Position numbers and translations under genes: made by a program. Below are positions 11,340 to 62,710 of a stretch of 64,000 bases of DNA, piece after piece (within the stretch, counting starts at the first letter, position 1; each line of letters opens with the position of its first letter). The notes under the pieces were generated by a model. That model worked only from the letters and a program-made list of their open reading frames with translations. It ran no database searches and was not told the origin of the DNA. The DNA lies in NCBI GenBank assembly GCA_015178975.1, contig WHVD01000020.1:744001-808000 (forward strand), given 5' to 3'. The stretch is from Hysterangium stoloniferum. Lineage: Eukaryota > Basidiomycota > Agaricomycetes > Hysterangiales > Hysterangiaceae.

Positions 11340-12115
11340 CTCTCCCCCAACAAAGTCATCACATGAGCCCCTGTCTGCAGGGGCCAACTCAGCCTAAGCA
11401 AATGAGCAGGCATCTATGATGTGGAAATGTTTGCCCTAGCAAGTGCCTGTGCTACTCTATCCAACATCATCTCCAACCTCCCTGAAGTTAAACACTTTCT
11501 CTTTTTCTCCAATAACCAAGCCACTCTAAATTCCATTGATGACCTCCAATTTTCTTCTATTAGCTTCTGGAAACACATTGACTTGCTGCTAACAGACCCC
11601 TCTCACTACATCTCCCTCTCCTGGATCCCAGGGTACCATGGTTTCCATGGCAACAAGGGGGCTTATATCCCCCAGTCCTCCACTCCACCATTTCATGGGC
11701 CCTAGAGCATGTGAAGGCATACTCTCTGAACCTCTGACACAAAGACTGGTTCAGCCTCCCTCACACCAATGCTGCCACCATTGCACTACACAAACATCCT
11801 GACCTGCACCTTTTGAAGTTCCACAAAGAATATGGAGGGCTCTGTCACACCCACACCTGCATCATCAAGGCCATTACAGGCCATGGATTCTACAGCACTT
11901 ACTACCACCACTTTCTCCCTGACCTCCCCTTGTGAGGAGTATGCTTTTACCACAGTTTCATTGTGGTAAAACACTCCTTTTATTTTATTTATATTTTACA
12001 CATTCTATTCATATCTATCTATCTTTTATATTCTTCAAATATTCCATCATTTCATTAGTTCAAAGCATTGTGTATACTTGTGGGTGCACTCGGCACCAAT
12101 TAGAACTCAGGACCC
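11340..12115 (+). mobile_element. LINE (Tad1/I-like) 3' end with RNase H domain, 5'-truncated
   Basis: The plus-strand frame 11421-11705 reads VEMFALASA, FFSNNQATLNSI and ISLSWIPGYHGFHGNKGA, the order of an RNase H domain from a non-LTR retrotransposon (DAE-like, DNQ-like and HxGxxGNExAD-like motifs, two acidic residues substituted). Further coding sequence to about 11935 ends with AITGHGFYSTYYHHFLPDLP, like the C terminus of fungal Tad1-clade ORF2. The 3' region 11930-12115 holds a 12-bp hairpin (TTTTACCACA..TGTGGTAAAA) and recurs at 24688-24870. The reverse transcriptase and endonuclease are missing, so this is a dead truncated copy. It abuts a truncated LTR. Confidence 0.65.
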
Positions 12116-13128
12116 CATCCTACATGCTCCCAACCCTCTATATTGTATAGTTACAACTGGAGTTTTCACCGGAGCCTGCACATCAACTTTTTTATGCCTG
12201 ACTCTCTGTACGCACCCCCACCTGTCTGCACCTAACCCTCTGTGTCTCATACACCAGTCCTCGGACTCCACTGTACTACGGACTCCACCCTACATACACC
12301 CGACACTCTGTGTCTTATGTACCAGTCACCGGACGCTGACAGGACTCCTGGAACCCCTCTAACAGAGCATAGAACCCCACTCCTGTTATGATCTGTCTCT
12401 GCATCTCACACACCAGTCATCGGAAAACCCACCGGACTCCACTGGACCTCCTGCACATCAAACCTGTCTATATCTGACACTATCTTGTGCACCAAGTCAC
12501 CGGACTCTGACCGGACTTCCGGAACCCCTCTAACTGAGCCCCACTCCAGTTATGGTTAAATGACCTGTCATGATTCGTTCTCCGCTCCTGTTCCATTCCG
12601 TCCCTAATTCCCAGTTTAGCATTTACTTGTTTTATTTTATGTTTAATAGTTCTGCCTCTCATTAATACCGGATTTGGTATTATTACATTTCACAGTCTAT
12701 ATAAGTCTGCTATATTCATGTACTTAGAATCCAGTTTCAATCTCGAACAAGTTTTCCCCTGAACAAGTTTGACCCTTGAACAGTCTCTAGTCCTCTTGTC
12801 TGTCTGCACACTCAATTCCCGGAACTCCCACAGGAACTCCGGAATCTATATCTTCCTGTATGCATTCTGTCAGCTCGAAATATGGACACCCAAATGAGTG
12901 TACGAGGGCACAGCCTATAAGCTGAAGCCAAGTCCATCTCAGTCATTCACCATACTTTCTGGTAATTATTCTGATATCACCATTCCTTGTACTAATATCC
13001 CTGGAACTTTCCCGGGACTTATTACCCAGGGACTCCGTGGGACAATTCCCAGAAGCAAGTGTGTGTTCGGAATAATTATCGGAAACCTCCATGGGACTAT
13101 CTGTGGAGCTTTGTTCGGGAACTTAACA
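12116..13128 (+). mobile_element. LTR family 2, solo LTR lacking its extreme 5' end
   Basis: About 90% similar by eye to the complete solo LTR at 61048-62103, entering about 30 bp inside it and ending at the same TTAACA terminus. The right flank (GTGATGCACTC) is the last exon of the hAT transposase, so the LTR family inserted into that gene. The left edge adjoins the LINE 3' end, so the expected left target duplication is gone. It is a fossil; no internal retroelement region is attached. Confidence 0.7.
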
Positions 13129-23166: not shown

Positions 23167-23877
23167 TGTTATGACCGTGTCGCAACCCTATCGGTCCCCG
23201 AGGTTATCGCCACACATCGACAATTCAAGTTACTGTTCAAGTCACCACATTGGAAACCATCGGCCTCCTGACACTGACATACATTTTCGCGGTGATCAAA
23301 CTCCATTTACACCCACATCAAAATACACTTGAACTATCTGGTTAAACTCTGATACGTCCCTTTTATTATGATGATCTGCTCTATCCTATGTTTCACATAT
23401 GTCTATATATATAATTCCACTCTCGGTTATCATCGGCCTCCGAACTAATCATAAACTTCCCATTCCTAGTCAAGCTTATTGTTAATACCATTTTCCACCC
23501 TTCTCCCCGTTAGTATTTTTTAGATGCCTGATACTTGTATATGAACCCACTGTAGTTGAAGTTACTAGGCAATCAGAATATCAACTCAGAATACCCTCTT
23601 ACGCCTCCAGAAGTCTCATACTAAGAATTCTGTCTTCCGCCTTCGTGTGCACTCGCCTCCCTTCGGTCCCCGACCCCTCAGCCCGACACTCGACTCATCC
23701 CTCAATTCCAATCGGTAATTCTCACCGAGAGGTATTCATTGGGACTAGCCTTCATCCGCCCAAAATTTAAGGACACCTGATGGACAACTGCGAGGGCACA
23801 GCACATAAGCTGAAGCCAAGTCCTTCCGATCAGTCCCCATCAGTCCACCGACATTAGTCAGTTTCCAGTTCTTAACA
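23167..23877 (+). mobile_element. solo LTR, family 3, with 5-bp target duplication
   Basis: 711 bp, TGTTATGACCG...TTCTTAACA, flanked by CTCCA on both sides (23162-23166 and 23878-23882), inserted inside LTR family 1. It has a TATA-like TGTCTATATATATAATTCC region near 23405. A clean duplication and intact ends indicate recombination to a solo LTR after a relatively recent insertion. Confidence 0.85.
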
Positions 23878-24227
23878 CTCCACTCCATTCCATCCCATTC
23901 CTAACACCAAATTTGGTGTTTATTTATGTCATTTTATGTTTGCTAGTTTAGTTTTCATTACTACTGGATTTGGTATATTATTCATTCCACAGTCTATATA
24001 GTCTGGCAGATGTTGTACATACAATCCAGTCAGAAAATCAGCTTAGATTCTCCCCAGTAATCTTAGTATATTTTCTGCTCTAAATTCCTCTTTGAAACAC
24101 ACTGCTCTTACTTGTTGGAGCCCACAGGCTCCGACCCATCTATCACTCGACCCCCGACTTATCTATCTTGACTCCCTGACCTCTCAACCCATGAACCCCA
24201 CCTGGACTCCCCGGGATTCCTGTCCGC

Positions 24228-25058: not shown

Positions 25059-25779
25059 TGTTAAGAACTATAAACTGACTAATGTCGGTGGCCGACAGGG
25101 ACCGATCGGAAGGACTTGGCTTCAGCTTATGGGCTGCGCCCTTGCAAATATCCGTAGGATGTCCTTAAATTTCGGGCGGGCGAGGACTAGTCCTAGTGAG
25201 TACCTTTCGGCGTGATACCGATCGGAATCGAAGGACAAGTCGGGCGTCGGGCCAAGGGGTTGGGGCCGGGAGTGGGCGAGCGCACGCGAAGGCGGATGGG
25301 GGAAGTCTTAGTATGAGACTGATACAGGTGTATGAGGGTATTCTGAGTCGATATTCTGATTGCCTAGTAACTACAATTACAGCGGGTTCATATACAAGTA
25401 ACAGGCGTCTGGAAAATACTAATGGGGAGAAGGGCGGAACACGGTATTAACAATAAGCTTGACTAGGAACGGGAAGTTTATGATTAGTTCGGAGGCCGAT
25501 GATAACCGAGAGCGGGATTACGGTAAAAGGAAATGGTTCGAGGACTACAAATATAGATAGACATATGCGAAACATAAGATTGAAACGGATCAACATAATA
25601 AAGGGGACGTATCAAAGTTTGACCAGACAATACGAGTTATTTGACGTGGGCGTAAATGGAGTTTGATCTTCGCAAAACATTCGTCAGCTTCGGGGCCGAT
25701 GGTTTCCGAGAGGATGACTTGAAACGTTGACAAGTGGCGATAACCTCGGGGCCGATAGGGTTGCGACACGGTCGTAACA
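25059..25779 (-). mobile_element. solo LTR, family 3, with 5-bp target duplication
   Basis: 721 bp, minus orientation (TGTTACGACCG...GTTCTTAACA), flanked by CTCTT at 25054-25058 and 25780-25784. It is clearly alignable to 23167-23877 along its whole length; intact ends indicate a fairly recent insertion. Confidence 0.85.
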
Positions 25780-25859: not shown

Positions 25860-27985
25860 GTCAGAACTTCTGCCACTCTTCACATTGGGTCTAGTGGAAT
25901 TGCCAACAGAATATCTTGATGTAACTTCTCGATGTTCATGGAGGGTGTTTATAATTACTATAATCTCAAATATTTACTAATAAAAGTCTTATTTTTACAA
26001 AACTCTATCTTTAAATAGTGATATCTATTCTGAAACAATTATATCATCAAAAAACAACCATCAGAAATAGTTCTCCATATTACATCTTATACAACCCATA
26101 GTTATTTAACAAATTCCATTGTATATAATTTCCTTCCTTTTACAGATGCTTACTAATACTTTTATTAGTACTTTGTTTTTTAAAAGTTGTAATGTAGTTA
26201 TTTCCATGTAAAATATGTAAAATATTATTGGAAATTTTTCATACCACAGCTGTCTTTATTAAATAAAACCTCCTATATATTCTGGGCATGTTGAATCAAG
26301 TAGAAATCTGTTCAGATTGACAGATCCATTCCAGAGTAATACATATGTATTTAGAGGTACCAATGATATACATATGCATTGAATGGACTATCTATTTTTT
26401 AAAAGTATTAGTGTTTCAAATTACTAATTTTTTATTATCTACTTGTGTCCAGAAATATTCTTTAGGTTGTAATGTACAAGAGCGTTTAAAACTTTCAAAA
26501 GGTTTTAAAAACCAAATTATGTTTGAATCATATCCCAGATGTTTAAATGACCTTTAGAGTATATTAGAATTTGGTATACTTAATAGTTTTCAGATATCCT
26601 CCCATGATAATTCCACAGATGATGAGATTAATGAGGTAAGTCATGTGGACTGATGTAGTAAGCTGCTGATTCATGAAAATGGGTTTCAAGTTGTGTGGGT
26701 TTACCATGGCATAGTGGCTGCTCCCCTCTTTTGGATAGATATCCCATCATCTAGTCAAAGTGTTGGGTTTGCCACCTAGGTGGCCATGTCAAAAATGGAT
26801 AATCATATTAAAGGCTGAAAGGTATTCAGACCAGTGGGCTTGCTGGCAGGTCAAAAGTTTTGTAGTAGAAAAATATTCCACATTTTTGTGATCAGTAACA
26901 ATGTCAATCGGAGTTCCCATGCCTTCCAGATAGTGTCGCCAAGTTTTGAAAGCAGCAAAAATTGCTAGGAGTTCCTTATCATGAATGTCATAGTTGAGCT
27001 CCAGTCCAGTGAAGGTCTGGGACAAAAAAGCCACAGGGTATACTTCTCTGTTAGAGTCCTGGATGGATAAAATTGCTCCAAGTGCATAGTCTGAGGTATC
27101 CATCTCTACAATGAGTGGGAAGTCCAGTTTCCAATGTGAAAGAATAGGAGCTGAAGAAAAAGAATCTTTTAAAAGATTGAAAGCTTTTCAACACTGATCA
27201 TCATCAAAATTCCATGGAGCACCCTTGCATGTGAGATGAGTAAGGGGGACCATGATTGTGAAATATCCATGGATAAACCATTGGTAAGAATTGGCAAAGC
27301 CAAGGAAAGATTTGTATATCTTTGACTTTTCTGGGTTCAGGCCAATCTTTGATGACTTGTACTTTTGCTTCATCCATGCAGAGTCTGTTGGGTCCCATTA
27401 TGAAACCTAGATATTCCATGGAGTCTGTGTCAAAAGTACATTTTTTACCATTTGCAAATAAACCATGTTATCTGAGTCTTCAGAGAACTTCACAGACCTG
27501 TTTGTCATGTTCTGCAGAGTCCTCAGAGTAGATAAGAATGTCATCCAGATAAACAATGACACATACATCAAGCATGTCAAAGAAAATGTCATTAATAAAA
27601 CATTGAAAAACAGATGGAGCATTGGTGAGCACAAAGGGCATCACCAACCACTCAAAAGCCCCATAGCAGGTTCTGAAAGTGGTCTTCCACTCGTCTCCCA
27701 TGGAGACCCAGACTGAGTGGTAGGCATGTTTAAGGTCTATCTTGGTGTAAATCAATGTGTTCCATGGAGTGTCGAGCAGGTCAGATATAAGTGGGAGTGG
27801 ATATTTGTCCTTTTTTGTGACAGCATTGAGTCCTCTGAAATCAACACATAGTTGAAGGGATCCATCCTTTTTCTTGAGAAACAAAACAGGTGCTTCAAAT
27901 GGAGATTTGGAGGTTCTGATGAAACCTATGGACAAATATTCATCCAGGAAATCCCAGATTGTGGAAGGTTCCATGGAGGACAGCA
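25860..27985 (-). mobile_element. Ty3/gypsy pol fragment: reverse transcriptase and RNase H
   Basis: Minus orientation. The reverse-transcriptase region (about 27974-27200) and the RNase H region (about 27103-26790, e.g. MDTSDYALGAILS and DIHDKELLAIF) are in family order. It lacks integrase on this strand and the LTRs, carries several breaks, and is interrupted by the solo terminal unit at 25940-26602. A fossil of the same gypsy family as the pieces at 60390-64000. Confidence 0.8.
25940..26602 (-). mobile_element. solo copy of the 675-bp terminal unit of the 42473-48918 element
   Basis: 663 bp, inverse orientation, starting GGAGGGTGTTTATAATTAC and ending CAGATATCCTCC. It is flanked by CAT on both sides (25937-25939 and 26603-26605), a 3-bp target duplication. 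The related gypsy copy at 62205-62235 shows the uninterrupted target region. It aligns end to end with the terminal repeats of the complete element, with perhaps 5-8% differences by eye. It carries no ORF, so it was either mobilised in trans or left by recombination between terminal repeats. Confidence 0.85.
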
Positions 27986-29510
27986 GATAAATATGTCCAA
28001 GGGGTGGCTGAGTGTTAAGTTGTTAAGAACAGGGTCTCTCGATCAGCATGGTTTCATTAGACTTGACAATTGTACCTATGTACCAAACTCCGATGGCCTC
28101 CGCCTCAGGATCCTTCAGTACAAACATGATCACCCACTCTCTGGCCATTTTGGGTACAACAAAACTCTATCATTAATAAGCAGAGAATACACTTGGCCCG
28201 GACTCTGTGGATCCATTAAACACTATTGTAAATCTTGCACTACTTGTCCACACTCTAAATATCAGCGACACAAGCCATACGGCCTTTTGAAACAACTCCC
28301 AGTACTGGAACACCTGTGGAATTCCATCTCTATGGATTTCATTGAACACCTACTGGATTCCGAAGGCTTTTCCACCATTCTAGTCATTGTTGACAGCTTC
28401 TCAAAACAAGGTATATTCATCCCTACATATGACACAATTATGTCCGTGCAGTTAGCGGAACTTTTTATTATCCACATATTTTCCAAGCATGGAGTTCTGT
28501 CCCATGTAACTTCTGACCGAGGATCAGAGTTTGTGTCTCACTTCTTTAGATCCCTTGGGAAATCCTTGGACATGAAATTACATTTTACATCCAGACATCA
28601 CCTGGAAGGCGATGGACAAACTGAATGCATCAATCAGACATTGGAACAATACCTCCACATATATTGCAACTATCAACAGGACAATTGGAAATCCCTATTA
28701 CCACTTGCAGAATTTGCTTACAACAATGCACCCTCGGCCACTACTGGTGTTTCCCCATTCTTTGCAAATAAAGGATATAATCCAAATATTACAGTACATC
28801 CAGAACGAAATCTCACCTCTGCCCATGCTCAAGAGTTCACCACAGACCTCCACAAGCTCCATGAGGAACTCCAGACTGCAATAAAGTCTGCCCAAGAGCA
28901 ATATCAACATTCAGCAGACAAACACCAGATTCCACCACCCAACTTCAAAATTGGCAATTGTGTTTTTGTCAAAGCTCAATTCTTTCAGACTACCCATCCA
29001 TCAAAAAAGCTTGCTGAAAAATATTTAGGTCCTTTGGAAATTATCATGCAAGTAGGTTCAGTTTCTTGGACCCTACAGCTTCCAGATAGCATGTGCGTGG
29101 TACACCCAGTATTTCATGTTTCCATGTTAGAACCTTGTACTGCTAACACTATCCCAGATCACATGCAATCTCCACCTCCTCTGGTCATCATTGATGGAGA
29201 ACCTGAGTTTGAAATCTCACAAATTTTAGATTTCAAAATTGACAAGCATTGATGCACTTGTAAACTGCTTTACTTGGTCAAGTGGGTGGGTTACAAGGGC
29301 ACCAATGAAGAGACTTCATGGATTTTGGCCACAGAACTTGGTAATGCCACAGAAATCATTACTGACTTTCATACAGCTTACCTGCTCAAACCCAGACCAC
29401 TATCATCTCTCTGACCACACTCCGCAGACCCTGTGTTATGTTTGGACTCATTCTCATTATTCCCTGTCACCCTATGTCTCTCTTTGCTTTTACAGGTTCT
29501 GACATATCTT
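27986..29510 (+). mobile_element. Ty3/gypsy integrase with chromodomain, opposite orientation to adjacent RT
   Basis: The plus-strand frame to 29252 holds an integrase zinc-binding region (HDHPLSGHFGYNKT, CKSCTTCPHSKYQ), the catalytic core (SMDFIEHL, VTSDRGSEFVSHF, GDGQTE) and a C-terminal segment. A chromodomain-like tail (LVKWVGYKGTNEETSW) follows in 29260-29330. One of the better preserved pol pieces here, but without RT or LTR on this strand, so it is a truncated fossil. It meets the minus-strand RT piece head to head at about 27985. Confidence 0.8.
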
Positions 29511-41200: not shown

Positions 41201-41340
41201 CCTATTAACTATTCCTTTGGCAGCCACTGGAATGTTCCAGAGATTTCTGGTTTTTGCTGTAGTAGCATATATGATGACATAATGCTCTCGCACCTGTGCA
41301 CACGTATGACACCCTTCGCGTCTTGTGACTGTCACATGTT

Positions 41341-41620
41341 GTGACAGTTGCGCGCCTTTGTGACAGTCACACACCTTTGTGACAGTCATGCGCCTTTGTG
41401 ACAGTTGCGCGCCTTTGTGACAGTTGCACGCCTTTGTGACAGTTGCGCGCCTTTGTGACAGTCACACGCCTTTGTGACAGTCATGCACCTTTGTGACAGT
41501 TGCGCGCCTCTGTGACAGTTGCGCGCCTTTGTGACAGTTGCGCGCCTTTGTGACAGTTGCGCGCCTCTGTGACAGTTGCGCGCCTCTGTGACAGTTGCGC
41601 GCCCTTGTGACAACTGTCAC
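41341..41620 (+). repeat. 20-bp minisatellite, 14 units
   Basis: Fourteen consecutive ~20-bp units of GTGACAGTTGCGCGCCTTT type with variants GTGACAGTCACAC.CC and GTGACAGTCATGC.CC that recur in the order A-B-C-A-A-A-B-C-A, showing a higher-order unit. The minus-strand frames across it are artefacts of the period. Confidence 0.9.
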
Positions 41621-42177: not shown

Positions 42178-42472
42178 GTATATGAACCCACCATAGTTGT
42201 GGCAATCAGAATATTGACTCAGAATACCCTCTTACACCTCTAGAAGTCTCGGACTAAGTATCCCGTTATCCACCTTTGTGTGCGCTTACCCACTCTCGGT
42301 TTCTGACCCCTTGGCCCAACACTCAACTTATCCTTTGGTTCCGATTGGCAGTCTGCCGAGAGGTACTTGTTGGGACTAGTCTTTGCCCGTCTGAAATTTA
42401 AGGACACCTGACGGATAGTTGCAAGGGCGCAGCACATAAGCTGAAGCCAAGTCCTTCTGATCGGTCCCTATT
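42178..42472 (+). mobile_element. LTR family 3, 3' part, split by the 6.4-kb element
   Basis: Matches the last ~300 bp of 23167-23877 (TTGTATATGAACCCAC...GGTCCCTATT) and continues after the insertion at 48922-48957 (GGCCTACTGACACTAGTCAG...TTCTTAACA). It therefore gives the exact empty target of the 42473-48918 element. Confidence 0.75.
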
Positions 42473-43147
42473 GGAGGATATCTGAAAACTATTAAGTATA
42501 CCAAATTCTAATATACTCTAAAGGTCATTTAAACATCTGGGATGTGATTCAAACATAATTTGGTTTTTAAAACTTTCAAAAAGTTTTAAACTCTCTCATA
42601 CATTACAAACTAAAGAATCTTTCCAGACACAAGTAGACAATTAAAAAAATTAGTAGTTTGAAACACTAATACTTTTAAAAAATAGATACCTTTAGATAGT
42701 CCATTCCATGCATATGTATATCATTGGCACCTCTAAATACATATGTATTACTTCGGAATAGATCTGTCAATCTGAACAGATTTCTACTTGATTCAACATA
42801 CCCAGAATATATAGGGGGTTTTACTTAATAAAGACAGCTGTGGTATGAAAATTTTCCAATAATATTTTACATATTTTACATGGAAATAACTTCATTACAA
42901 CTTTTAAAAAACAAAGTACTAATAAAAGTATTAGTAGGCATCTGTAAAAGGAAGGAAATTATATACAATGGAATTTGTTAAATAACTATGGGTTGTATAA
43001 GATGTAATATGGAGAACTATTTCTGATGGTTGTTTTTTGATGATATAATTGTTTCAGAATAGATATCACTATTTAAAGATGGAGTTTTGTAAAAATAAGA
43101 CTTTTATTAGTAAATATTTGAGATTATAGTAATTATAAACACCCTCC
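42473..43147 (+). repeat. left terminal direct repeat (675 bp)
   Basis: Starts GGAGGATATCTGAAAAC, ends TATAAACACCCTCC; the ends are short imperfect inverted repeats (GGAGG(A/G)T(A/G)T). No ORF. Its inner flank TTAATG does not match the outer flank, so the repeat is not an independent insertion. Confidence 0.9.
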
Positions 43148-43211
43148 TTAATGAAGGTCTTGATTTGAAAATTGAAAAAATGTAATGAAAGTACTTCTAT
43201 TGTAGTCTCTC

Positions 43212-44720
43212 ATGGCAAATGAGGCAATTAAAGAATGTATTGATATTATAAAAGAGTTCAGTATACCTGATGTTCTGGATACTAAATACCACAATCCTTT
43301 AGAAGCCATTAGACTATCTTTTGAATCTGCTAATACTTCACATATTTTCTGTGACAATGTAATTCTTTGGTCTATTGGTGGAGACTTTAGAAGTATCATA
43401 TATGGAAAATGCAAAGTATATTTCTCACTTTCCTTTAAGATAAAGTTATTGCACTCAGGTACTCTCAAAAATAATGATATTGCACCTACAAATACTCCTT
43501 ACTTTTCTTATAAAATTTCATTATCTGAGGTACCTATCAAAAACATAATAAAATTCCTAAGAGAAACCATTTGTGATGAAATTATATTACATGATATAGA
43601 TATCTCCCAAGATATCTCCTATGTTACTACTAGAAAAGATGTTCTTAAGCATATATTAAATATTGGAATAAGAAAAGATGATATTATAGATGATAGAAAA
43701 AAGGTTGGAGATAATTGTATATCCTTTTACAATGAAGATCACTCATGTAAGATCAAAGTATATAACAAATTTGTACAAATGCTAGAAAGCTGTGATGTGA
43801 TGACTACTCTAGGATCTAGAATCCACAATTTATATGTTGATCCTACTGAGTCAATGTCACAATCACTAGAAAGATTAAAGGATGTGGGAATGACAAGGAT
43901 TGAAGTTAAGTTTTATGGTAACAAAGTATTTTCAAAATCATGGTATATAGATAACTTTATTAGTATTAGAAATAACTTTAATGGATGTAGATTTTATAGA
44001 AGTTCCTTTGAAGAGCAGTGGAGAGCACTTGTAGATAGCATCTATTCCAAATCAATAATAATGGTTTACTTAGAAGATAGAAAGTTTTTCACATATTGTC
44101 ATTGGTGGAATTCTTTAACAGGAAAGATCCAAGGAGGCTTCCAAAAGAATGTAAATAAGGAAGATATAATTCAATTAGTTTCTAACTATAGTTTTAATGG
44201 AAATACTACCAAACTTGTTAGGGTTGATGATGGGATAACCATGGTAGAGGAATACAAAAGGTCACAAAAGGGTATTACACTTATACCTGGTCCTAAAGGA
44301 GGGCTCTATCCTAGGATTGAGAGTTCATCTTCACCAAGTGATATAGGGCTTGTGGATTACAAAGGAGTAAAGCTTGGTTGGGTTGACACTCAGATAACTA
44401 AAAAATCACCTCCCCTTGTTCCAATTTATAGAGTTAGTAAGAATTTAGAAGATATAAGTGATTTGAGAATATCTAGATACAAGGTAGGATATTCAATTCT
44501 TAAAGAAAATTCAAAATATCAAGTTATATCAAAAGGTCAACTTTTATATAGGGGAAAGAATTGCACTGTTATAGAAGTCTTAGATAAAAATTCAGAAGTA
44601 CTAAAGGTAAGGTGTGGAGAATCCTTACAAAATGCTGTAAAGGATATGAAAGATAAGACTTATATAAGAACTGGTAGAATAGTAAAAAGACATGGACAGA
44701 AAGATATACATATAAAATGA
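43212..44720 (+). CDS. 502-aa protein, possible rolling-circle Rep-like initiator
   Basis: First gene of the element, 64 bp inside the left terminal repeat, ATG at 43212, intronless. I do not recognise it with certainty. Visible blocks: LHDIDISQD (about residues 126-134), an R..VGDNCISFY segment (to about 173), KIKVYNKFVQMLES (180-193) and MTRIEVKFYG (227-236). A further region has QWRALVDSIY and a C-terminal basic tail. The succession of a D-x-D motif, an h-S-h-Y turn, K-h-Y-x-K and R-h-E-h-x-h-Y resembles the core of Rep_trans/phage gpII-type replication initiators (known for those families). This is a weak, by-eye resemblance and no catalytic Tyr is assigned. Alternative: an unrelated DNA-binding protein of the transposon. 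The 103-aa gene follows 31 bp downstream. Confidence 0.6.
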   Translation: MANEAIKECIDIIKEFSIPDVLDTKYHNPLEAIRLSFESANTSHIFCDNVILWSIGGDFRSIIYGKCKVYFSLSFKIKLLHSGTLKNNDIAPTNTPYFSYKISLSEVPIKNIIKFLRETICDEIILHDIDISQDISYVTTRKDVLKHILNIGIRKDDIIDDRKKVGDNCISFYNEDHSCKIKVYNKFVQMLESCDVMTTLGSRIHNLYVDPTESMSQSLERLKDVGMTRIEVKFYGNKVFSKSWYIDNFISIRNNFNGCRFYRSSFEEQWRALVDSIYSKSIIMVYLEDRKFFTYCHWWNSLTGKIQGGFQKNVNKEDIIQLVSNYSFNGNTTKLVRVDDGITMVEEYKRSQKGITLIPGPKGGLYPRIESSSSPSDIGLVDYKGVKLGWVDTQITKKSPPLVPIYRVSKNLEDISDLRISRYKVGYSILKENSKYQVISKGQLLYRGKNCTVIEVLDKNSEVLKVRCGESLQNAVKDMKDKTYIRTGRIVKRHGQKDIHIK

Positions 44721-44751
44721 AAAAAGTTCAGCCTACTACTTCTGTACCAGA

Positions 44752-45063
44752 ATGGATCTCCTTGAGACCAATATCACTAACCTCAATGGACAACATATAA
44801 ATAATATATGTGAGATAGTAGTCTTATCATTGTCACTAGATCTTAAAATGAAGAAGATCCTTGTAGCAGTTGTAGAACTTAATATCAAACTTGTTAAGAA
44901 AGGTTCTTCAAAACTTAATGAGGAATCTTGTGGTAGTGATGTTATATTCTTCCTTCTTAATATTGGAAAAGATCTAGAACATAAATTATTTTCCAAGGTA
45001 AATATAGATGATGAGGTAGTGGAGAAATTAGTTGAATATGTAAGAATAACTGAAGATCCCTAA
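44752..45063 (+). CDS. 103-aa small protein of unknown function
   Basis: Same strand as the 502-aa gene, 31 bp after its stop, ATG at 44752, stop TAA 45061-45063, 24 bp before the palindrome. Predicted mainly helical (LSLSLDLKMKKILVAVVEL), no signal peptide or known motif. Tight spacing suggests an accessory partner of the 502-aa protein expressed from one transcript or a very close second promoter. Confidence 0.5.
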   Translation: MDLLETNITNLNGQHINNICEIVVLSLSLDLKMKKILVAVVELNIKLVKKGSSKLNEESCGSDVIFFLLNIGKDLEHKLFSKVNIDDEVVEKLVEYVRITEDP

Positions 45064-45087
45064 AATATTACTACAATATTTAAACCT

Positions 45088-45788
45088 ATTCCCCATAAAT
45101 CCTATTTTTAAAAGAAATTTCAACTAACCTATTTCCCATAAATCCTCCTTTTTAAAAGTAATCCGAAAATCCTTTAAAATCCCATAATAAAGATTAAAAA
45201 TTAATAAAGGGTAGTAGCGGTAACATATGCTTAGGGGCTCCAGCCCCCGGTTAATCTTAATAGTTCTTTTACCTCAATAATTTACCCAAATTTCAGTTGT
45301 CTTCTTACCATAATTATTCAGTAGGGTTGTAGCTATTACCATCCAACCTTTTCTATTTTCAGGATTTACCAATATTTCAACTATCTTCCCCTTTTCAGAA
45401 ATTCTATTAATAATTCAAATACAGTTCCTAGCTTACTAAAAGAAACATAGTCTCTAACTTGCTAAATAGATATTATTGTTGTTGAAGATCTAAGAAAGAG
45501 ATATTGGTAAATCCTGAAAATAGAAAAGGTTGGATGGTAATAGCTACAACCCTACTGAATAATTATGGTAAGAAGACAACTGAAATTTGGGTAAATTATT
45601 GAGGTAAAAGAACTATTAAGATTAACCGGGGGCTGGAGCCCCTAAGCATATGTTACCGCTACTACCCTTTATTAATTTTTAATCTTTATTATGGGATTTT
45701 AAAGGATTTTCGGATTACTTTTAAAAAGGAGGATTTATGGGAAATAGGTTAGTTGAAATTTCTTTTAAAAATAGGATTTATGGGGAAT
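45088..45788. repeat. perfect 288-bp inverted repeat with 125-bp spacer
   Basis: Arms 45088-45375 and 45501-45788 are reverse complements with no difference that I could find. They begin ATTCCCCATAAATCC and reach inward to GGATTTACCAATAT. Each arm also holds a small hairpin, GGGGCTCCAGCCCC. The right arm ends 2 bp from the stop codon of the 117-aa gene; the left arm starts 24 bp after the stop of the 103-aa gene. Possible roles: bidirectional terminator, replication origin or cruciform for the Rep-like protein, source of hairpin RNA, or a young inserted foldback element. No target duplication is obvious. Confidence 0.9.
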
Positions 45789-45790
45789 AA

Positions 45791-46144
45791 TTAGGGTTCT
45801 ACTAAATAAATTTGAGGGTTCCCAGTTATTCCAAGATCTCTTTTTATTTCTTCAAATGTAGATGGAAATCTTGATAAAATCTCCTCAATATTTACTTCCT
45901 CTTTAGGATGAGAAAACTCATAGATACACATGATAAACATTCCATCTTCACCCTTAGGAGCATCTTCATGTTTCTGGATATTGAATGTTATTGGACATCC
46001 ACTTCTTCTTATTAACCTCTTAATATCTCCCAAGTAGCCACTCTCTGTAGTTATATGATGTCGTCTACACTGTTCCAAGATCTTTTCTTTTCTAACTTTA
46101 TATCCAAGTACCTTAGGGAAGTTCATATTATCTAATTTCATCAT
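45791..46144 (-). CDS. 117-aa protein of unknown function
   Basis: Second gene of the minus-strand pair, 17 bp after the 204-aa gene; ATG at 46144 (a second Met follows immediately), stop 45791-45793. Basic N-terminal half with RKEKILEQCRRHH and KRLIRRSGCP, acidic C-terminal half (EEVNIEEILSRF). No known domain. Coupling to the nuclease-like gene suggests a partner or specificity subunit (inference). Confidence 0.5.
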   Translation of the reverse strand: MMKLDNMNFPKVLGYKVRKEKILEQCRRHHITTESGYLGDIKRLIRRSGCPITFNIQKHEDAPKGEDGMFIMCIYEFSHPKEEVNIEEILSRFPSTFEEIKRDLGITGNPQIYLVEP

Positions 46145-46161
46145 GTAGAGCTTTTAAAATT

Positions 46162-46776
46162 TCAGTTTAAGAAGGTGTTTCTAATTTTAGATTTAAGTTG
46201 ATCAAATGAATTATTATCCATAATATCAAGTATTTTAGATTTATATTCTATTTCAAATACTTCTTCCTCTTCTTCATCACTAGGGATATAACTCTTATTC
46301 CCCCATGAAGTTTTAGGCTTGTGACTCTTAGAAGTATCTTTCCTAATAAATCTGTACCATTTCCAAAATCTTCCTACAGAGACTATTCCAAATATCCCAT
46401 GATAGTCCTCATCTAGAAAGACTACCTGCATGTATTCTTTTAACTGATCCTCTGCCTTTTCTACTTGTTCTTCTAACTTCCCTGGATTGATTAACCTCTT
46501 ATTTTCCACTATCAAATATTTACATTCATATAGACTTTGTGCTTCCTTTTTATAATGGATAACAACAAAGTCTGGTATAAATATCTTAGGTATTTCTACA
46601 TCATCCCTATTGGTTATGCTATATTGTAAGGATAGCTGGGGATTAACCAATAATGGTGGTTGTAAAAGTGATACTAGTCTAACATTCCAAGGTGCATACC
46701 AAAAGCATTCTAAGTTTTCAGGGTTTATAGAAGTACTTTCAGCAGCACTCACAGATATCTTTAAGATCTGCTCCAT
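46162..46776 (-). CDS. 204-aa PD-(D/E)XK-type nuclease-like protein
   Basis: Intronless, ATG at 46776. Residues 67-73 IPDFVVI followed 15-25 residues later by LIVENKRL (88-95) give the PD...ExK signature: D69, E91, K93, with beta-strand-like hydrophobic surroundings as in PD-(D/E)XK folds (RecB, Vsr and many transposon-borne nucleases). A helical segment with LEEQVEKAEDQLKEY follows, as is usual after the ExK strand. The C terminus holds an acidic EEEEE stretch and a basic tail. It is transcribed divergently from the transposase, sharing a 98-bp spacer. Likely DNA cleavage or resolution during transposition; assignment rests on motif pattern only. Confidence 0.6.
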   Translation of the reverse strand: MEQILKISVSAAESTSINPENLECFWYAPWNVRLVSLLQPPLLVNPQLSLQYSITNRDDVEIPKIFIPDFVVIHYKKEAQSLYECKYLIVENKRLINPGKLEEQVEKAEDQLKEYMQVVFLDEDYHGIFGIVSVGRFWKWYRFIRKDTSKSHKPKTSWGNKSYIPSDEEEEEVFEIEYKSKILDIMDNNSFDQLKSKIRNTFLN

Positions 46777-46874
46777 TAGGATTCATACATATAACTAATA
46801 TACAGGAATTTTCAATATTCTCTATTAAATTGAATATTTCCAAATCAGTATAGCATTGTATACTAATCATATCA
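46777..46874. promoter_or_regulatory. shared divergent promoter region
   Basis: The 98 bp between the ATGs of the nuclease-like gene (-) and the transposase gene (+) is very AT-rich, with TATA-like TTGTATACTA near 46857. Both genes must be driven from here unless transcripts start within coding sequence. Confidence 0.4.
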
Positions 46875-48230
46875 ATGTCTCCTCTAAATGAGGAGTTTAA
46901 TAAGTTAATGGACCAACAATGGAAGTTCCTTTATAAGGAATGGCCTCAGATCAAGCCATCCAAGTATCATAGGTCTGATATCAAACCTATTGATAAAATT
47001 AGTCACATTAAGGATCTTGTTCTTCAGAGACTTGGTATTATTCCAGTCTTTTTCTTCCTTGTTGTGGTCTTTGCCACCCAAGATTATCCTGGACCCTATA
47101 GAAATATGGAGAAAGGACTTTTAATACTATATCAACTACTGCAAGGTTATTCCTTAAATCAAATGTCAGTCTTTATACCTAAAAGTAGTTATTATGATAT
47201 TTTTAGAAAATTCTATGAAAGACAAGGTAATGATCTTGATAAAAGGATCTCAAATATGCTCATTTCTATGTTCTCAACTATTGATATACGCATTCATTCT
47301 GCACAGAAAAATCCTCCATTGTTTAGACATGTAACATTAATGATAGATGGCCATGATACTAGAGCAAGTGTTATTGGTGAGAAGAGTGAAGATATGTATT
47401 CATATAAACTCAAGAAATCTGGACTTCGCACACAAGTTTGTATTGATATAAATGGCATGGTTCTATTCACATCAAAGTCAGCACCCTGTAAAGATAATTC
47501 AGATGGAGTCATGTTTGTAAAGATGAAATTGGAAAAGTATATAGACAAACTAGATTGTATTGCTTTAGATGGGGGATATCCCTTACACCTTACAAAGATA
47601 ACAAGTAATACAGAATTAGATATGATTAACTTCTGTATACCTATACGTAAATCAAAAGGTATAGAATTGTCAAAGGAAGAGAGTACCTTTAACAAAATGT
47701 TTGGTAGTTTCAGGTCTAAGATTGAAGCTACTTTTGGAGAGCTGGCTACCACATTTAAGAAGCTCAGTAATGAAGGAGGTGTTAGAGTTTCTGATGATGA
47801 GGTATTCACAACCCAGTTAAAGCTTGGATGTCTCTTATTAAATGTGAAGAAGTTTGTAATTTTAGGTGGTATTCAACCTCAACCTCATCACTCTTCATGG
47901 TTATCTTCAGAGTTTGACTACTGGAAAGATGAAAATATTGAAACATATGAGAATCTCCCATCATTGACAGATAGTAGAAGTAATGCTCAGGAGATGCTCA
48001 AGCTTCAAAGAAGTTTTCTGAGTATGGAGTTAGGTGATGATGAAGATATGGATGAGACAGATGAGGCATATGAAATTGAGGAAATAATAAACCATAGAGG
48101 AAAAGGAAAGTTCAGAGAGTACCTTGTAAAATGGAAGGGATATGAAGATGTAACTTGGCAAGGAGTGAGGAGTTTTGATACCACAGAGTGTATAGATGAA
48201 TACTGGAAAAAGAAAGGAGAAGAAATTTGA
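46875..48230 (+). CDS. 451-aa DDE transposase (DDE_Tnp_4-like) with C-terminal chromodomain
   Basis: Intronless. An N-terminal helical region (about 1-140) has a helix-turn-helix-like part near residues 85-115. The catalytic core follows: VTLMIDGHDTRASV (D158), YSYKLKKSGLRTQVCID, then DCIALDGGYPL (D232), an IPIRKSKGIELSKEE segment and FRSKIEATFGEL (E284). The spacing and the motifs DG(T/H), DxGYP and R..vE..FG are those of DDE_Tnp_4 / PIF-Harbinger-IS5-like transposases (established). Residues 399-451 are a chromodomain: YEIEEIINHRG, then YLVKWKGYEDVTWQ, with aromatic cage residues Y399, W and a terminal helix. Chromodomains read H3K9me-type marks, so insertion may be steered to heterochromatin, consistent with its position in a retroelement graveyard. 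It ends 13 bp before the right terminal repeat. Confidence 0.85.
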   Translation: MSPLNEEFNKLMDQQWKFLYKEWPQIKPSKYHRSDIKPIDKISHIKDLVLQRLGIIPVFFFLVVVFATQDYPGPYRNMEKGLLILYQLLQGYSLNQMSVFIPKSSYYDIFRKFYERQGNDLDKRISNMLISMFSTIDIRIHSAQKNPPLFRHVTLMIDGHDTRASVIGEKSEDMYSYKLKKSGLRTQVCIDINGMVLFTSKSAPCKDNSDGVMFVKMKLEKYIDKLDCIALDGGYPLHLTKITSNTELDMINFCIPIRKSKGIELSKEESTFNKMFGSFRSKIEATFGELATTFKKLSNEGGVRVSDDEVFTTQLKLGCLLLNVKKFVILGGIQPQPHHSSWLSSEFDYWKDENIETYENLPSLTDSRSNAQEMLKLQRSFLSMELGDDEDMDETDEAYEIEEIINHRGKGKFREYLVKWKGYEDVTWQGVRSFDTTECIDEYWKKKGEEI

Positions 48231-48243
48231 TAAACTTCCAGTA

Positions 48244-48918
48244 GGAGGATATCTGAAAACTATTAAGTATACCAAATTCTAATATACTCTAAAGGTCATT
48301 TAAACATCTGGGATGTGATTCAAACATAATTTGGTTTTTAAAACTTTCAAAAAGTTTTAAACTCTCTCATACATTACAAACTAAAGAATCTTTCTGGATA
48401 CGAGTAGACAATAAAAAAAATTAGTAGTTTGAAACACTAATACTTTTAAAAAGTAGATACCTTTAGATAGTCCATTCCATGCATATGTATATCATTGGCA
48501 CCTCTAAATACATATGTATTACTTCGGAATAGATCTGTCAATCTGAACAGATTTCTACTTGATTCAACATACCCAGAATATATAGGGGGTTTTACTTAAT
48601 AAAGACAGCTGTGGTATGAAAATTTTCCAATAATATTTTACATATTTTACATGGAAATAACTTCATTACAACTTTTAAAAAACAAAGTACTAATAAAAGT
48701 ATTAGTAGGCATCTGTAAAAGGAAGGAAATTATATACAATGGAATTTGTTAAATAACTATGGGTTGTATAAGATGTAATATGGAGAACTATTTCTGATGG
48801 TTGTTTTTTGATGATATAATTGTTTCAGAATAGATATCACTATTTAAAGATGGAGTTTTGTAAAAATAAGACTTTTATTAGTAAATATTTGAGATTATAG
48901 TAATTATAAACACCCTCC
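48244..48918 (+). repeat. right terminal direct repeat (675 bp)
   Basis: Same orientation as 42473-43147, about six differences, four of them clustered in CCAGACACAAG versus CTGGATACGAG near position 155 of the repeat. Followed by target duplication ATT. Confidence 0.9.
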
Positions 48919-48921
48919 ATT

Positions 48922-50550: not shown

Positions 50551-51033
50551 CACTGAAGGCACCCCAAGATTTTGGGAGTTGGAAAACTTTCAGAAAATAT
50601 TGATATTTGGCCAAGTTTTCTAACCATTTTTTGCACACAAAAACTGTTTTAAAATTTTGAGTATTAGCAGGTTTTTCTGAGGCCAAAAATTGTATCTGAT
50701 AATCCTAAAAATTTGCATCAGGAAATTGTGAGGAAACATTGTTAGAAATAGCCTATTTTTTATAAATACCCTAAGTTTTTCCACCCAACATAATCCTATG
50801 AAAACTGTAATAAAGGGCCTAGAAAAATTAATTAAAAACTACATATTTCTACTCAATTTTGCCCCTCAGGGAATTGAGTGAAAACTGTGATTTCCAGTCT
50901 GAAAAAATCTTGTGAGAAGACAAAGTTTTCTTAAAGTTTTGTCAAGAAAAACCATAATGAAATTTAAAATTTAATGATGCTAGTTTTTGTGACACTTTGC
51001 GACTTTGTGTGACACTTTGTGACACTTTTTGCA

Positions 51034-52589: not shown

Positions 52590-53275
52590 GGAAGGGTGTT
52601 TATAATTACTATAATCTCAAATATTTATTAACAAAAGCCTTATTTTTACAAAACTCCATCTTTAAATAGTGATATCTATTCTGAAACAATTATATTGTCA
52701 AAAAACAATCATCAGAAATAGTTCTCCATATTACATTTTATACAACCCATAGTTATTTAATAATTTAATAAATTCCATTGTATATAATTTCCTTCCTTTT
52801 ACAGATACCTACTAATACTTTTATTAGTACTTTGTTTTTTAAAAATTGCAATGTAGTTATTTCCATGTAAAATATGTAAAATATTATTGGAAATTTGTCA
52901 TACCACAGCTGTCTTTATTAAGTGAACCCCCCCCTATATGTTTTGGGTATGTTGAATCAAGTAGAAATCTGTTCAAATTGACAGATCCATTCTGAAGTAA
53001 TACATATGTATTTAGAGGTGCCAATGATGTACATATGCATGGAATGGACTATCTAAAGGTATCTATTTTTTAAAAGTATTAGTGTTTCAAACTACTAATT
53101 TTTTTAATTGTCTACTTGTGTCTGGAAAGATTCTTTAGTTTGTAATGTATGAGAGAGTTTAAAACTTTTTGAAAGTTTTAAAAACCAAATTATGTTTGAA
53201 TCACATCCCAGATGTTTAAATGACCTTTAGAGTATATTAGAATTTGGTATACTTAATATTTTTCAGATATCCTCC
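52590..53275 (-). mobile_element. solo copy of the 675-bp terminal unit, inserted in a TIR
   Basis: Inverse orientation: GGAAGGGTGTTTATAATTAC...CAGATATCCTCC, 686 bp. It splits the right TIR of the 50551-53685 element between GGTTTTCCCCTT and TTGACAAAAC; comparison with the left TIR (TTTTTCTTGACAAAAC) shows the target and supports a 3-bp CTT duplication with one shared or lost base. Confidence 0.85.
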
Positions 53276-53685
53276 TTGACAAAACTTTAAGAACACTTTG
53301 TCTTGTCACAATATTTTTTCAGACAGGAAATCACAGTTTTCACTCAATTCCCTAAGGGGCAGGATTGAGTAGAAATATGTAGTCTTTAATTGATTTCTCT
53401 AGGCACATTATTACAGTTTTCATAGGATTATGTTGGGTGGGAAAACCCCAATTTCTCATTCATAAAATCCATAAAAAATAAACTATTTTTAACAATGTTT
53501 CCTCACAATTTCCTGATGGAAAGTTTTGGGATTTTCAGATACAATTCTTGGCCTCATAAAAACCTACTAATACTCAAAAATTTCAAACAGTTTTTGTGTG
53601 CAAAAAATGGTTAGAAAATTTGGCCAAATAGCAAGATTTTCTGAAAGTTTTCCAACTCCAAAAATCTTGGGGTGCCTCCGGGGTG

Positions 53686-60389: not shown

Positions 60390-62710
60390 TAATTACTTGC
60401 AGTTGACAGTCAATTCAACCATTGGCCTGTTTATAGTTTCAATATACATGGAGATATTATTCCAGTGTTTAATTGACATGCTTGGTTTTTCCATTGCCTT
60501 CTGTGTGGTATCCAGATGTAAAGTGTAACTTCATGTCCAAGGTTTTCCCACAGGATCTAAAGAAGTGAGATTCAAACTTAAAACCTCAATTGGAAATTAT
60601 GTGGGACAGGACTCCATGCTTGGAAAATATGTGGATAATGAAAGATTTCACTAGTTGCACAGATGTAATGATATCATATGTAGGGATGAAAATATCTTGG
60701 AGAATCTGTCAACAACAACTAGGATTGTGGAAATCCTTTGGAATCTGGTATGTGTTCAATGAAATCCATAGAAATGGAGTGCTATGGGAGTTCCAGTAAT
60801 GGGAGTTGCTTCAGAAGGCCATATGGCTTGTGATGCTGTGATTTGGAGTGTAAACAAGTAATGCAAGATTTACAATAGTGCTTTGGAGTCTGGGCCAAGT
60901 ATATTCTCTTCATATCATTGACACAGTCTTGTTGAGCCTGAAATGTTTTGAGAGTGGTCATTATGTTTGTACTGGGTGATTCTGAGGTAGAGGCCATTGG
61001 AGTCCAGTACATATGTATATATGATTGTTAAGTCTAATGAAACAATGTGTCAGGAACCGGAAAACCCGCCGGCCCCCGGACCCCGTCCTACATGCTCCCG
61101 ACCCTCTATATTGTATAGTTACAACCGGAGTTCCTGCTGGAGCCCGCACATCAACTTGTTTATGCCTGACTCTCTGTACGCACCCCACCTGTCTGCACCT
61201 AACCCTCTCTGTCTCATACACCAGTCCTCAGACTCCACGGGACTCCGAACTCCACCCTAGATACACCCGACACTCTGTGTCTTATGTCCCAGTCACCGGA
61301 CTCTGACCGGACTCCTGGAACCCCTCTAACAGAGCATAGAACCCTGCTCCTGTTATGATCTGTCTCTGCATCTCACACACCAGTCATCAGAAAACCCACC
61401 GGACTCCACCGGACCTCCTGCACATCAAACCTGTCTATACCCGACACTATCTTGTGTACCAAGTCACCGGACTCCGACCGGACTTCCGGAACCCCTCTAA
61501 CTGAGCCCCACTCCAGTTATGGTTAAATGACCTGTCATGATTCATTCTCTGCTCCCGTTCCATTCCCTCCCTAATTCCCAGTTTAGTATTTACTTGTTTT
61601 GTTTTATGTTTAATAGTTCTGCCTCTCATTAATACCAGATTTGGTATTATTACATTTCACAGTCTATATAAGTCTGCTATATTCATGTACTTAGAATCCA
61701 GTTTCAATCTTGAACTAGTTTTCCCCCGAACAAGTTTGACCCTTGAACATGTTTCCCTTCGATCCCAGTCTCTAGTCCTCTTGTCTGTTGATTCCCGGAA
61801 CTCCCATAGGAACTCTGGAATCTATATCTCCTTGCATGCATTCTGTCAGTTCGAAATATGGATGCCTGAATGAGTGTACGAGGGCACAGCTTATAAGCTG
61901 AAGCCAAGTCCATCTCAGTCGTTACCCATTCTCTGGTAACTATTCTGATACGACACTCCCTTGTACTACTAATATTCCCGGAAACTCCCCAGACCTATTA
62001 CCCGGGGAGTCTGTGGGACTATTACCCGGAAAGTGTGTTCGGAATATAGTTACCGGAGAAACCTCTGCGGGACTATCCGTGGAGCTTTGTTCAGAACTTA
62101 ACACAATGCTTGTCTTGAGACCACTGGGGTTGACCAGGGTCCACAGGGTTGTCGAGATGTGCCTTGGTTACTGGATCTAGTGGAATTGCTGATAGAATAT
62201 CTTGATGTAATTTCTTGATATCCAAAATGATAATTCCACACATGACTGGATGAATGAGGTAAGTAGCATGGACTGATGTGGTAAGTTGCTGATTTGTGAA
62301 GATGGGTTTTAAGTTGTGTGGGTTTACTGTGGCATAGTTATTACTCCCCTCTTTGGGATGGATGTACCATCATCTAGTCAAAGTGTCATGTTTTCCAAGG
62401 TAGCCAGGTTGAAAATGGATGATCAGATTAAAAGCAGATATTCAGACCACTGGGCTTGCTGACAGGTCAAAGCTTTCCCAGTTGAAAAAGATTCCTGTGG
62501 TCTGTGACAACATCAACTGGAATTCCTGCACCCTCCAAATAGTGTTTCCATGCTTTGAAGGCTTCAAAAATCATGTGATGTTCCTTGTGATGGACATTGT
62601 AGTTGAGCTTTGCTCTGGTAACAGTCCAGGAGAGAAATGTGACTGGGTCAATTTCTCCATTAGAGTCCTGGATGGACAAAAGGTTCCCAATGCATAGTCC
62701 AAGGCATCTG
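60390..62710 (-). mobile_element. Ty3/gypsy RNase H to integrase fragment, split by a solo LTR
   Basis: Minus orientation: RNase H traces at 62679-62440 (PVTFLSWTVTRAKLNYN), linker to 62109, then the integrase N-terminal part below 61047 (CKSCITCLHSKSQHH, PYGLLKQLPLLE) and core traces to about 60390. Family order is kept. Several breaks; fossil. Interrupted at 61048-62103 by LTR family 2. Confidence 0.7.
61048..62103 (+). mobile_element. solo LTR, family 2, with 5-bp target duplication
   Basis: 1,056 bp, TGTCAGGAACCGG...CAGAACTTAACA, flanked by CAATG at 61043-61047 and 62104-62108. The unoccupied target is seen at 24600-24620 (AATGAAACCATGCTTGTCA). It has a TATA-like CTATATAAGTCTG near 61667. 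Confidence 0.9.

Follow-up and report, generated by a model that had tools for sequence, protein, structure and literature searches.

A probable DNA transposon with long terminal direct repeats and a chromodomain-bearing DDE transposase in Hysterangium stoloniferum

Introduction

Can an element that is laid out like a long terminal repeat (LTR) retrotransposon be a DNA transposon? The question is raised by a locus of the basidiomycete Hysterangium stoloniferum, at positions 42473-48918 of a 64,000-nucleotide stretch of contig WHVD01000020.1 (assembly GCA_015178975.1, positions 744,001 to 808,000 of the forward strand), the whole of which is referred to here as the window. At this locus, two long terminal direct repeats (LTDRs) enclose an interior (INT) that encodes a DDE transposase with a chromodomain. 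The element is probably a DNA transposon that is autonomous, is built like a composite (LTDR-INT-LTDR) and moves as one unit by means of its own DDE enzyme. What is observed directly is the anatomy, the single insertion site, the 3-bp duplications, the solo units, the DDE domain of IS5/PIF type and the chromodomain, and the evidence base consists of one full copy and two solo units in one 64-kb window.

Structure and boundaries of the element

The element and its two terminal units, u1 and u2, have the following positions.

42473-48918, plus strand: whole element, 6,446 bp, with ATT target-site duplications at 42470-42472 and 48919-48921
42473-43147, plus strand: u1, left LTDR, 675 bp, with its own imperfect terminal inverted repeats
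48244-48918, plus strand: u2, right LTDR, 675 bp, 669/675 identical to u1

The two units are separated by 6 substitutions and no insertions or deletions over 675 bp (99.1%), and both start with GGAGGATATCTG and finish with TAAACACCCTCC. An earlier note on this DNA, made from the letters alone, had described two ~99% identical 675-bp direct repeats with shared ends and an ATT on both outer flanks, and both observations are confirmed at these coordinates. Within one unit, GGAGGATATCTG and GGAGGGTGTTTA form an imperfect inverted repeat, with 8/12 positions matching, the first five included. The list of open reading frames (ORFs) of the window contains none of at least 80 aa confined to the 675-bp units, and the single-strand fold of the unit has a z of -2.68 (20 shuffles). 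The interior between u1 and u2 is 5,096 bp long, AT-rich (31.6% G+C) and holds five intact ORFs.

The outer flanks read CCCTATT up to the left boundary and ATTGGCC from the right boundary onwards, which places ATT on both sides. The inner flanks, TTAATG after u1 and CCAGTA before u2, do not match each other. Taken unit by unit, the flanks are thus ATT/TTA for u1 and GTA/ATT for u2 and, because the inner neighbours TTA and GTA differ from ATT, neither terminal unit is bounded by a duplication of its own.

As a side observation, the interior begins with TTA (43148-43150) and ends with GTA (48241-48243), so that a circle with one unit would have that unit between GTA and TTA, with 2/3 bases alike. 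This likeness is a weak one, and it might be a worn duplication from a founding insertion of the unit into the gene body.

A single insertion site and two solo units

Pre-insertion sites were sought by joining the flanks of each insertion, with one duplication kept, and aligning the product to the rest of the window. For the composite, two such sites were obtained.

23535-23881, plus strand: empty site 1, uninserted paralogue of the composite's target, 78% across the joint
25059-25397, minus strand: empty site 2, uninserted paralogue of the composite's target, 79% across the joint

The joined outer flanks align through the joint to these two paralogues, which points to one insertion site for the composite. 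The joint itself is ungapped in both, one of them having a 1-nt gap four bases beyond it, and the target bases have diverged, with GTC and ATC opposite ATT.

Two further copies of the repeat, absent from the earlier note, lie in the same window without an interior.

25940-26602, minus strand: s1, solo repeat, 663 bp, ATG/ATG flanks in element orientation; empty-site paralogue at 62172-62609
52591-53275, minus strand: s2, solo repeat, 685 bp, CAA/CAA flanks in element orientation, 3' end CACCCTTC; empty-site paralogue at 50989-50557

Both solo units (2/2) combine matching 3-bp flanks with an empty site that spans the joint, at 77% for s1 and 87% for s2. The s2 end CACCCTTC is CACCCTCC with one base changed, the second-last, and all other ends of the four copies are as in u1 and u2. 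By analogy, such a unit is the counterpart of a solo LTR. A profile built from the same four copies found no fifth in the window at E up to 10, and there is no (LTDR-INT)n multimer in the window, which holds four units in total. Beside s2, an inverted duplicate of ~400 bp (88%) is seen at 50557-50946 and 53275-53677, one arm of which bears s2 while the other is its empty site.

The alignments indicate that the whole composite occupies a single site in a pre-existing repeat and that each solo unit sits at a separate site. The earlier proposal of a DNA transposon that occupies one insertion site as a unit is therefore borne out by the ATT/ATT pair, the unmatched inner flanks and the two empty sites. 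It had named two observations that would speak against it, namely separate duplications around two independent insertions and copies with other boundaries. Neither u1 nor u2 has matching flanks, and the two further copies in the window share the ends of the element, with the one changed base in s2.

The transposase gene and the lack of Pfam matches to retroelement domains

The enzyme that would move the element is encoded next to u2.

46875-48230, plus strand: transposase, 451 aa, with DDE_Tnp_4 (matched at residues 170-302) and a C-terminal chromodomain (399-446)

Both domains, for which the earlier note had suggested a profile search, score above their Pfam cut-offs: DDE_Tnp_4 with an E of 4.9e-10 (39.7 bits, cut-off 24.8) and Chromo with an E of 2.1e-6 (28.0 bits, cut-off 25.1). 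The NCBIfam model IS5_4 reaches 13.9 bits, far under its cut-off of 140. A sequence search of the PDB returned 39 distinct sequences, with matches in the chromodomain region (HP1 type, cpSRP43 included). With regard to bacterial relatives, the sole record from a tblastn search of plasmids is a DDE_Tnp_4 transposase of a Streptomyces plasmid, which is 27% identical over residues 163-322, with an E of 1e-3 when the database was searched and of 2e-11 when the two proteins were compared by themselves. Exact-pattern scans of viral_contigs and genome_contigs, by which close relatives alone are detectable, gave no relative of the 451-aa protein.

The putative catalytic triad is D158, D232 and E284, with spacings of 73 and 51 residues. 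A MAFFT alignment included four bacterial rows, of which three are near-identical copies; D158 is matched by D in all four, E284 by E in three and D232 by D in one. No [C/D]xxH motif is found anywhere in the protein. The transposase appears to be of the IS5/PIF-Harbinger type, an assignment made by the DDE_Tnp_4 domain match. Of the earlier PIF/Harbinger label, the transposase type fits, but the duplications ATT, ATG and CAA fit no single subgroup motif of the wider PHIS assemblage discussed below.

The five ORFs of the interior (502, 103, 117, 204 and 451 aa), which the earlier note had called intact and intronless, are open frames as read in the sequence, each running from ATG to stop. The note's remark that reverse transcriptase is missing also holds, as a Pfam search of all five ORFs, taken to an E of 1, gives neither reverse transcriptase nor RNase H nor gag.

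Divergence among the four units

Pairwise differences between the units were counted without gapped columns. They amount to 6 of 675 between u1 and u2, 26 of 663 between u1 and s1, 24 of 675 between u1 and s2, 27 of 663 between u2 and s1, 30 of 675 between u2 and s2, and 44 of 663 between the two solos. In the columns that are ungapped in all copies, 21 changes are private to s1 and another 21 to s2, and 3 sites separate the solos from u1 and u2. The private changes together with these splitting sites imply that s1 and s2 arose as independent copies before u1 and u2 diverged.

The sites at which u1 and u2 disagree are unit positions 152, 153, 156, 159, 170 and 210, all inside 58 bp. Six random sites would cluster that tightly in about 3 per 100,000 draws (~3e-5, by a test that was picked after the cluster had been seen). 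At positions 152 and 153 u2 equals s1, which is gapped at 170. The pattern may be read as a conversion tract atop a very young pair of ends.

Proposed movement of the element and rival explanations

In the proposed mechanism, the DDE transposase encoded in the interior would pair GGAGGATAT at the outer end of the left unit with ACACCCTCC at that of the right unit, and would move the 6.4-kb element whole, leaving a 3-bp duplication. Because each 675-bp unit has both kinds of end, a single unit could be moved by the same enzyme as a non-autonomous element; alternatively, recombination between u1 and u2 would leave one unit behind as a solo. The pattern of differences between u1 and u2 suggests that their near-identity could be upheld by recombination, either as gene conversion or through a one-unit circle. 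Furthermore, the chromodomain would probably direct integration to histone-methylated, repeat-rich chromatin. Insertion into repeats was considered as proof of such targeting and discarded: all three targets (3/3) have paralogues in the window, but this is also true of 34.9% of the window sequence that does not belong to the element family.

Several observations weigh against movement of the composite as one unit by its own enzyme. One full copy and two solos are all that the window offers, and the three duplications, ATT, ATG and CAA, have no common motif. The empty sites are diverged paralogues (77-87%) and not allelic sites, the shorter arm of each alignment is just 36-54 nt, and length differences occur near the joint in the solos (3 nt for s1, 2 nt for s2). 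The CAA/CAA pair of s2 arises from a boundary placed where the flanks match; if the extra T is instead read as an insertion, there is no duplication. At positions 156, 159 and 210, that is, 3/6 of the differences, u2 matches no other copy, which leaves a conversion tract with an unmatched donor. Lastly, the middle residue of the triad, D232, is tentative, since just one of the four bacterial rows has D there.

The main rival, which is considered unlikely, takes the 675-bp unit for an ordinary non-autonomous transposon resembling a miniature inverted-repeat transposable element. A circle of one unit plus the genes would have recombined into a resident solo, the outer ATT would date from the older solo insertion, and the composite would never have moved whole. 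This scenario corresponds to model b1 of Kojima and Bao (PMC9587614, Fig. 5). It predicts the same ATT/ATT pair and the same empty site, and it agrees with the ratio in the window, where two solos, each with its own duplication, stand against one full element. However, if the resident was as old as the solos, ~24-44 differences between u1 and u2 would be expected, and 6 are seen, clustered; the scenario still fits if the resident solo was very young. The direct repeats, the solo copies and the near-identity of the two ends are also LTR-like features, and the locus could on these grounds be an LTR retrotransposon, or a derivative with a replaced interior, having true LTRs, solo LTRs and a captured DDE gene. 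This origin is most improbable, given that the ends are GGAGG/CCTCC and not TG/CA, that 3 bp is a short duplication for an LTR integrase, that reverse transcriptase, RNase H and gag are not detected by Pfam in the five ORFs, and that the domain present is DDE_Tnp_4 and not rve, the integrase type of the gypsy-like pieces in the same window. As for two independent 675-bp insertions flanking a gene cluster by chance, the unit does occur singly, but the unmatched pairs ATT/TTA and GTA/ATT, the matched outer pair and the two empty sites that span the joined flanks make such a coincidence scarcely credible.

A transposon moved as a unit by its own DDE enzyme is thus preferred. An extension of it, offered as a speculative possibility, is that a circle of one unit plus the interior rebuilds two identical ends at each integration, in an IS5/PIF lineage whose LTR-like layout evolved independently. 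Two proteins described below, the putative nuclease of 204 aa and the one of 502 aa, would serve this cycle, and the chromodomain would pick heterochromatic targets. If true, this would amount to a DNA-only equivalent, in a eukaryote, of the retroviral cycle or of the translocatable-unit cycle of IS26.

Comparison with known systems

The architecture, which had looked undescribed to the earlier note, is already found in KolobokP, solo repeats included (Kojima and Bao 2022, PMC9587614). According to the available parts of that paper, KolobokP elements of seven animal phyla have LTDRs of ~450 or 660 bp with short inverted repeats of their own, and an interior with a gene for a DDD/E transposase, joined in most families by one for a His-Me nuclease. 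The same parts describe solo repeats, multimers of the form (LTDR-INT)n-LTDR, signs of single-repeat excision, and duplications mainly of 3-4 or 4-5 bp with no strong target preference reported; they present the KolobokP repeats as unlike those of any other DNA transposon and give a [C/D]xxH motif between the second D and the E for Kolobok and four other superfamilies.

As far as these parts of the paper allow a comparison, the Hysterangium element shares with KolobokP the LTDR-INT-LTDR layout with inverted repeats in each LTDR (imperfect here, 8/12), a DDD/E transposase in the interior, a similar repeat length (675 bp here) and solo LTDRs with duplications (here 2/2, of 3 bp, the s2 boundary being chosen to fit). 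Conversely, its transposase is of the DDE_Tnp_4 (IS5/PIF) type, lacks [C/D]xxH and bears a chromodomain, and it has four other ORFs, none of them matched to the His-Me nuclease family, and no multimer in the window. With regard to that nuclease, neither Pfam nor NCBIfam gives a match in these four ORFs, by which a diverged one could be missed. The element is read here as an independent second case of the architecture, meaning the second found within the open-licence PMC literature; no further case was recognised among the matches listed in the open-licence full texts of PMC, a scope that leaves out most subscription journals and Repbase.

The available text of PMC10989895, which cites the KolobokP paper and was checked for a fungal case, reports KolobokH alone. 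That of PMC12477816 gives chromodomains in Gypsy elements alone, and that of PMC12730594 (2025, on TET/JBP-coding fungal transposons) describes Harbinger relatives with no long direct repeats.

A second transposase type with the same layout, a similar repeat length and the same solo habit would imply that the layout can arise more than once and that it is probably functional, for example in the upkeep of identical ends. The element would thus offer a second system in which the function of the LTDR layout can be tested, and its fusion of a chromodomain with DDE_Tnp_4 makes chromatin-targeted DNA transposition testable. Annotation pipelines could mistake elements of this kind for LTR retrotransposons, and their solos for solo LTRs.

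Within the PHIS assemblage, Spy elements are not known to make a target-site duplication. The available text of Han et al. (2015, PMC4482050) distinguishes the groups PIF/Harbinger, Pangu, Nuwa, ISL2EU and Spy, with the subgroup duplications TWA, ANT, CWG, TNA and AT. The present element resembles the PHIS groups as given there in its DDE_Tnp_4-type transposase, its 3-bp duplication, its possession of more than one protein, its GG start (seen in several PHIS groups) and its short inverted repeats (5-1042 bp in PIF/Harbinger). It differs in that no single one of these motifs covers ATT, ATG and CAA on either strand, ATT alone fitting ANT. Additionally, the terms "direct repeat" and "chromodomain" are absent from the available text of PMC4482050, and Pfam finds no Myb/SANT partner in the ORFs of the element.

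Bacterial composite transposons and the "pseudo-composite" units of IS26, as treated in the available parts of PMC9587614, are similar in that two direct end modules flank a body and can move jointly with it. In the Hysterangium element, the transposase is in the body and the modules have no ORF of at least 80 aa of their own. LTR retrotransposons share its layout and solo copies; they differ from it in that no reverse transcriptase was found here, and in the ends, the duplication length and the kind of DDE enzyme.

Other open reading frames and features of the window

Apart from the transposase gene, the interior contains four ORFs and a large hairpin.

43212-44720, plus strand: 502-aa protein, open frame, family not recognised
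44752-45063, plus strand: 103-aa ORF, open frame, probable gene
45087-45789, no strand assigned: hairpin, 703 bp, with 292-nt arms (291/292 complementary) and a 119-nt spacer
45791-46144, minus strand: 117-aa ORF, open frame
46162-46776, minus strand: 204-aa protein, open frame, possible PD-(D/E)xK nuclease, with PD...ENK at residues 68-93 (found by eye and by regular expression)

When the interior was randomised 300 times with a first-order Markov model, the longest ORF reached a median of 66 aa and a maximum of 110 aa, and ORFs of at least 100 aa had a mean of 0.02 per randomisation. The ORFs of 117, 204, 451 and 502 aa are secure by length, because they are longer than the longest ORF in all 300 randomisations; the 103-aa ORF is probably a gene, though it falls under the maximum of 110 aa.

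The 204-aa protein is possibly a PD-(D/E)xK nuclease, a suggestion drawn from a motif that is weak by itself; no confirming match was found in Pfam, NCBIfam, PHROGs-type libraries or the PDB, nor in the exact-pattern scan of viral_contigs. The 502-aa protein has no match above cut-off in the domain libraries, the PDB, the plasmid tblastn search or the viral_contigs scan. A likeness to rolling-circle replication proteins, noticed by eye, was dropped, the sole Pfam match at E up to 1 being Tfb5 at 0.25, below the cut-off. AlphaFold runs without an alignment gave unusable models of both proteins, with a mean predicted local distance difference test score of 31.9 (502 aa) and 32.0 (204 aa), values that are probably due to the missing alignment. 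The 103-aa ORF had sub-threshold matches alone (two PHROGs of unknown function and BlaR1), as did the 117-aa ORF (Ribosomal_S21 and a UshA-like family), and none of these was used. A 28-base pattern of the element's ends likewise had no match in the viral_contigs scan.

The hairpin, with TA...TA as its outermost bases, takes up the space between the 103-aa and 117-aa ORFs, which converge on it. A nested foldback element is one possible reading of it; it may also serve the transposon as a terminator or in replication.

Elsewhere in the window, gypsy-like pol pieces lie at 26789-29252, with RNase H and reverse transcriptase on the minus strand and an integrase with a Tf2-1-like SH3 domain on the plus strand (the Tf2-1-like integrase piece, which agrees with a fungal source, being 27852-29252); together they look like a broken, rearranged retroelement. 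A direct repeat of ~1 kb (88%), at 12110-13128 and 61078-62103, has its copies 49 kb apart and is outside the element family. Closer to the element, 0.9 kb upstream, a 19-bp tandem array of ~14 copies spans 41339-41612.

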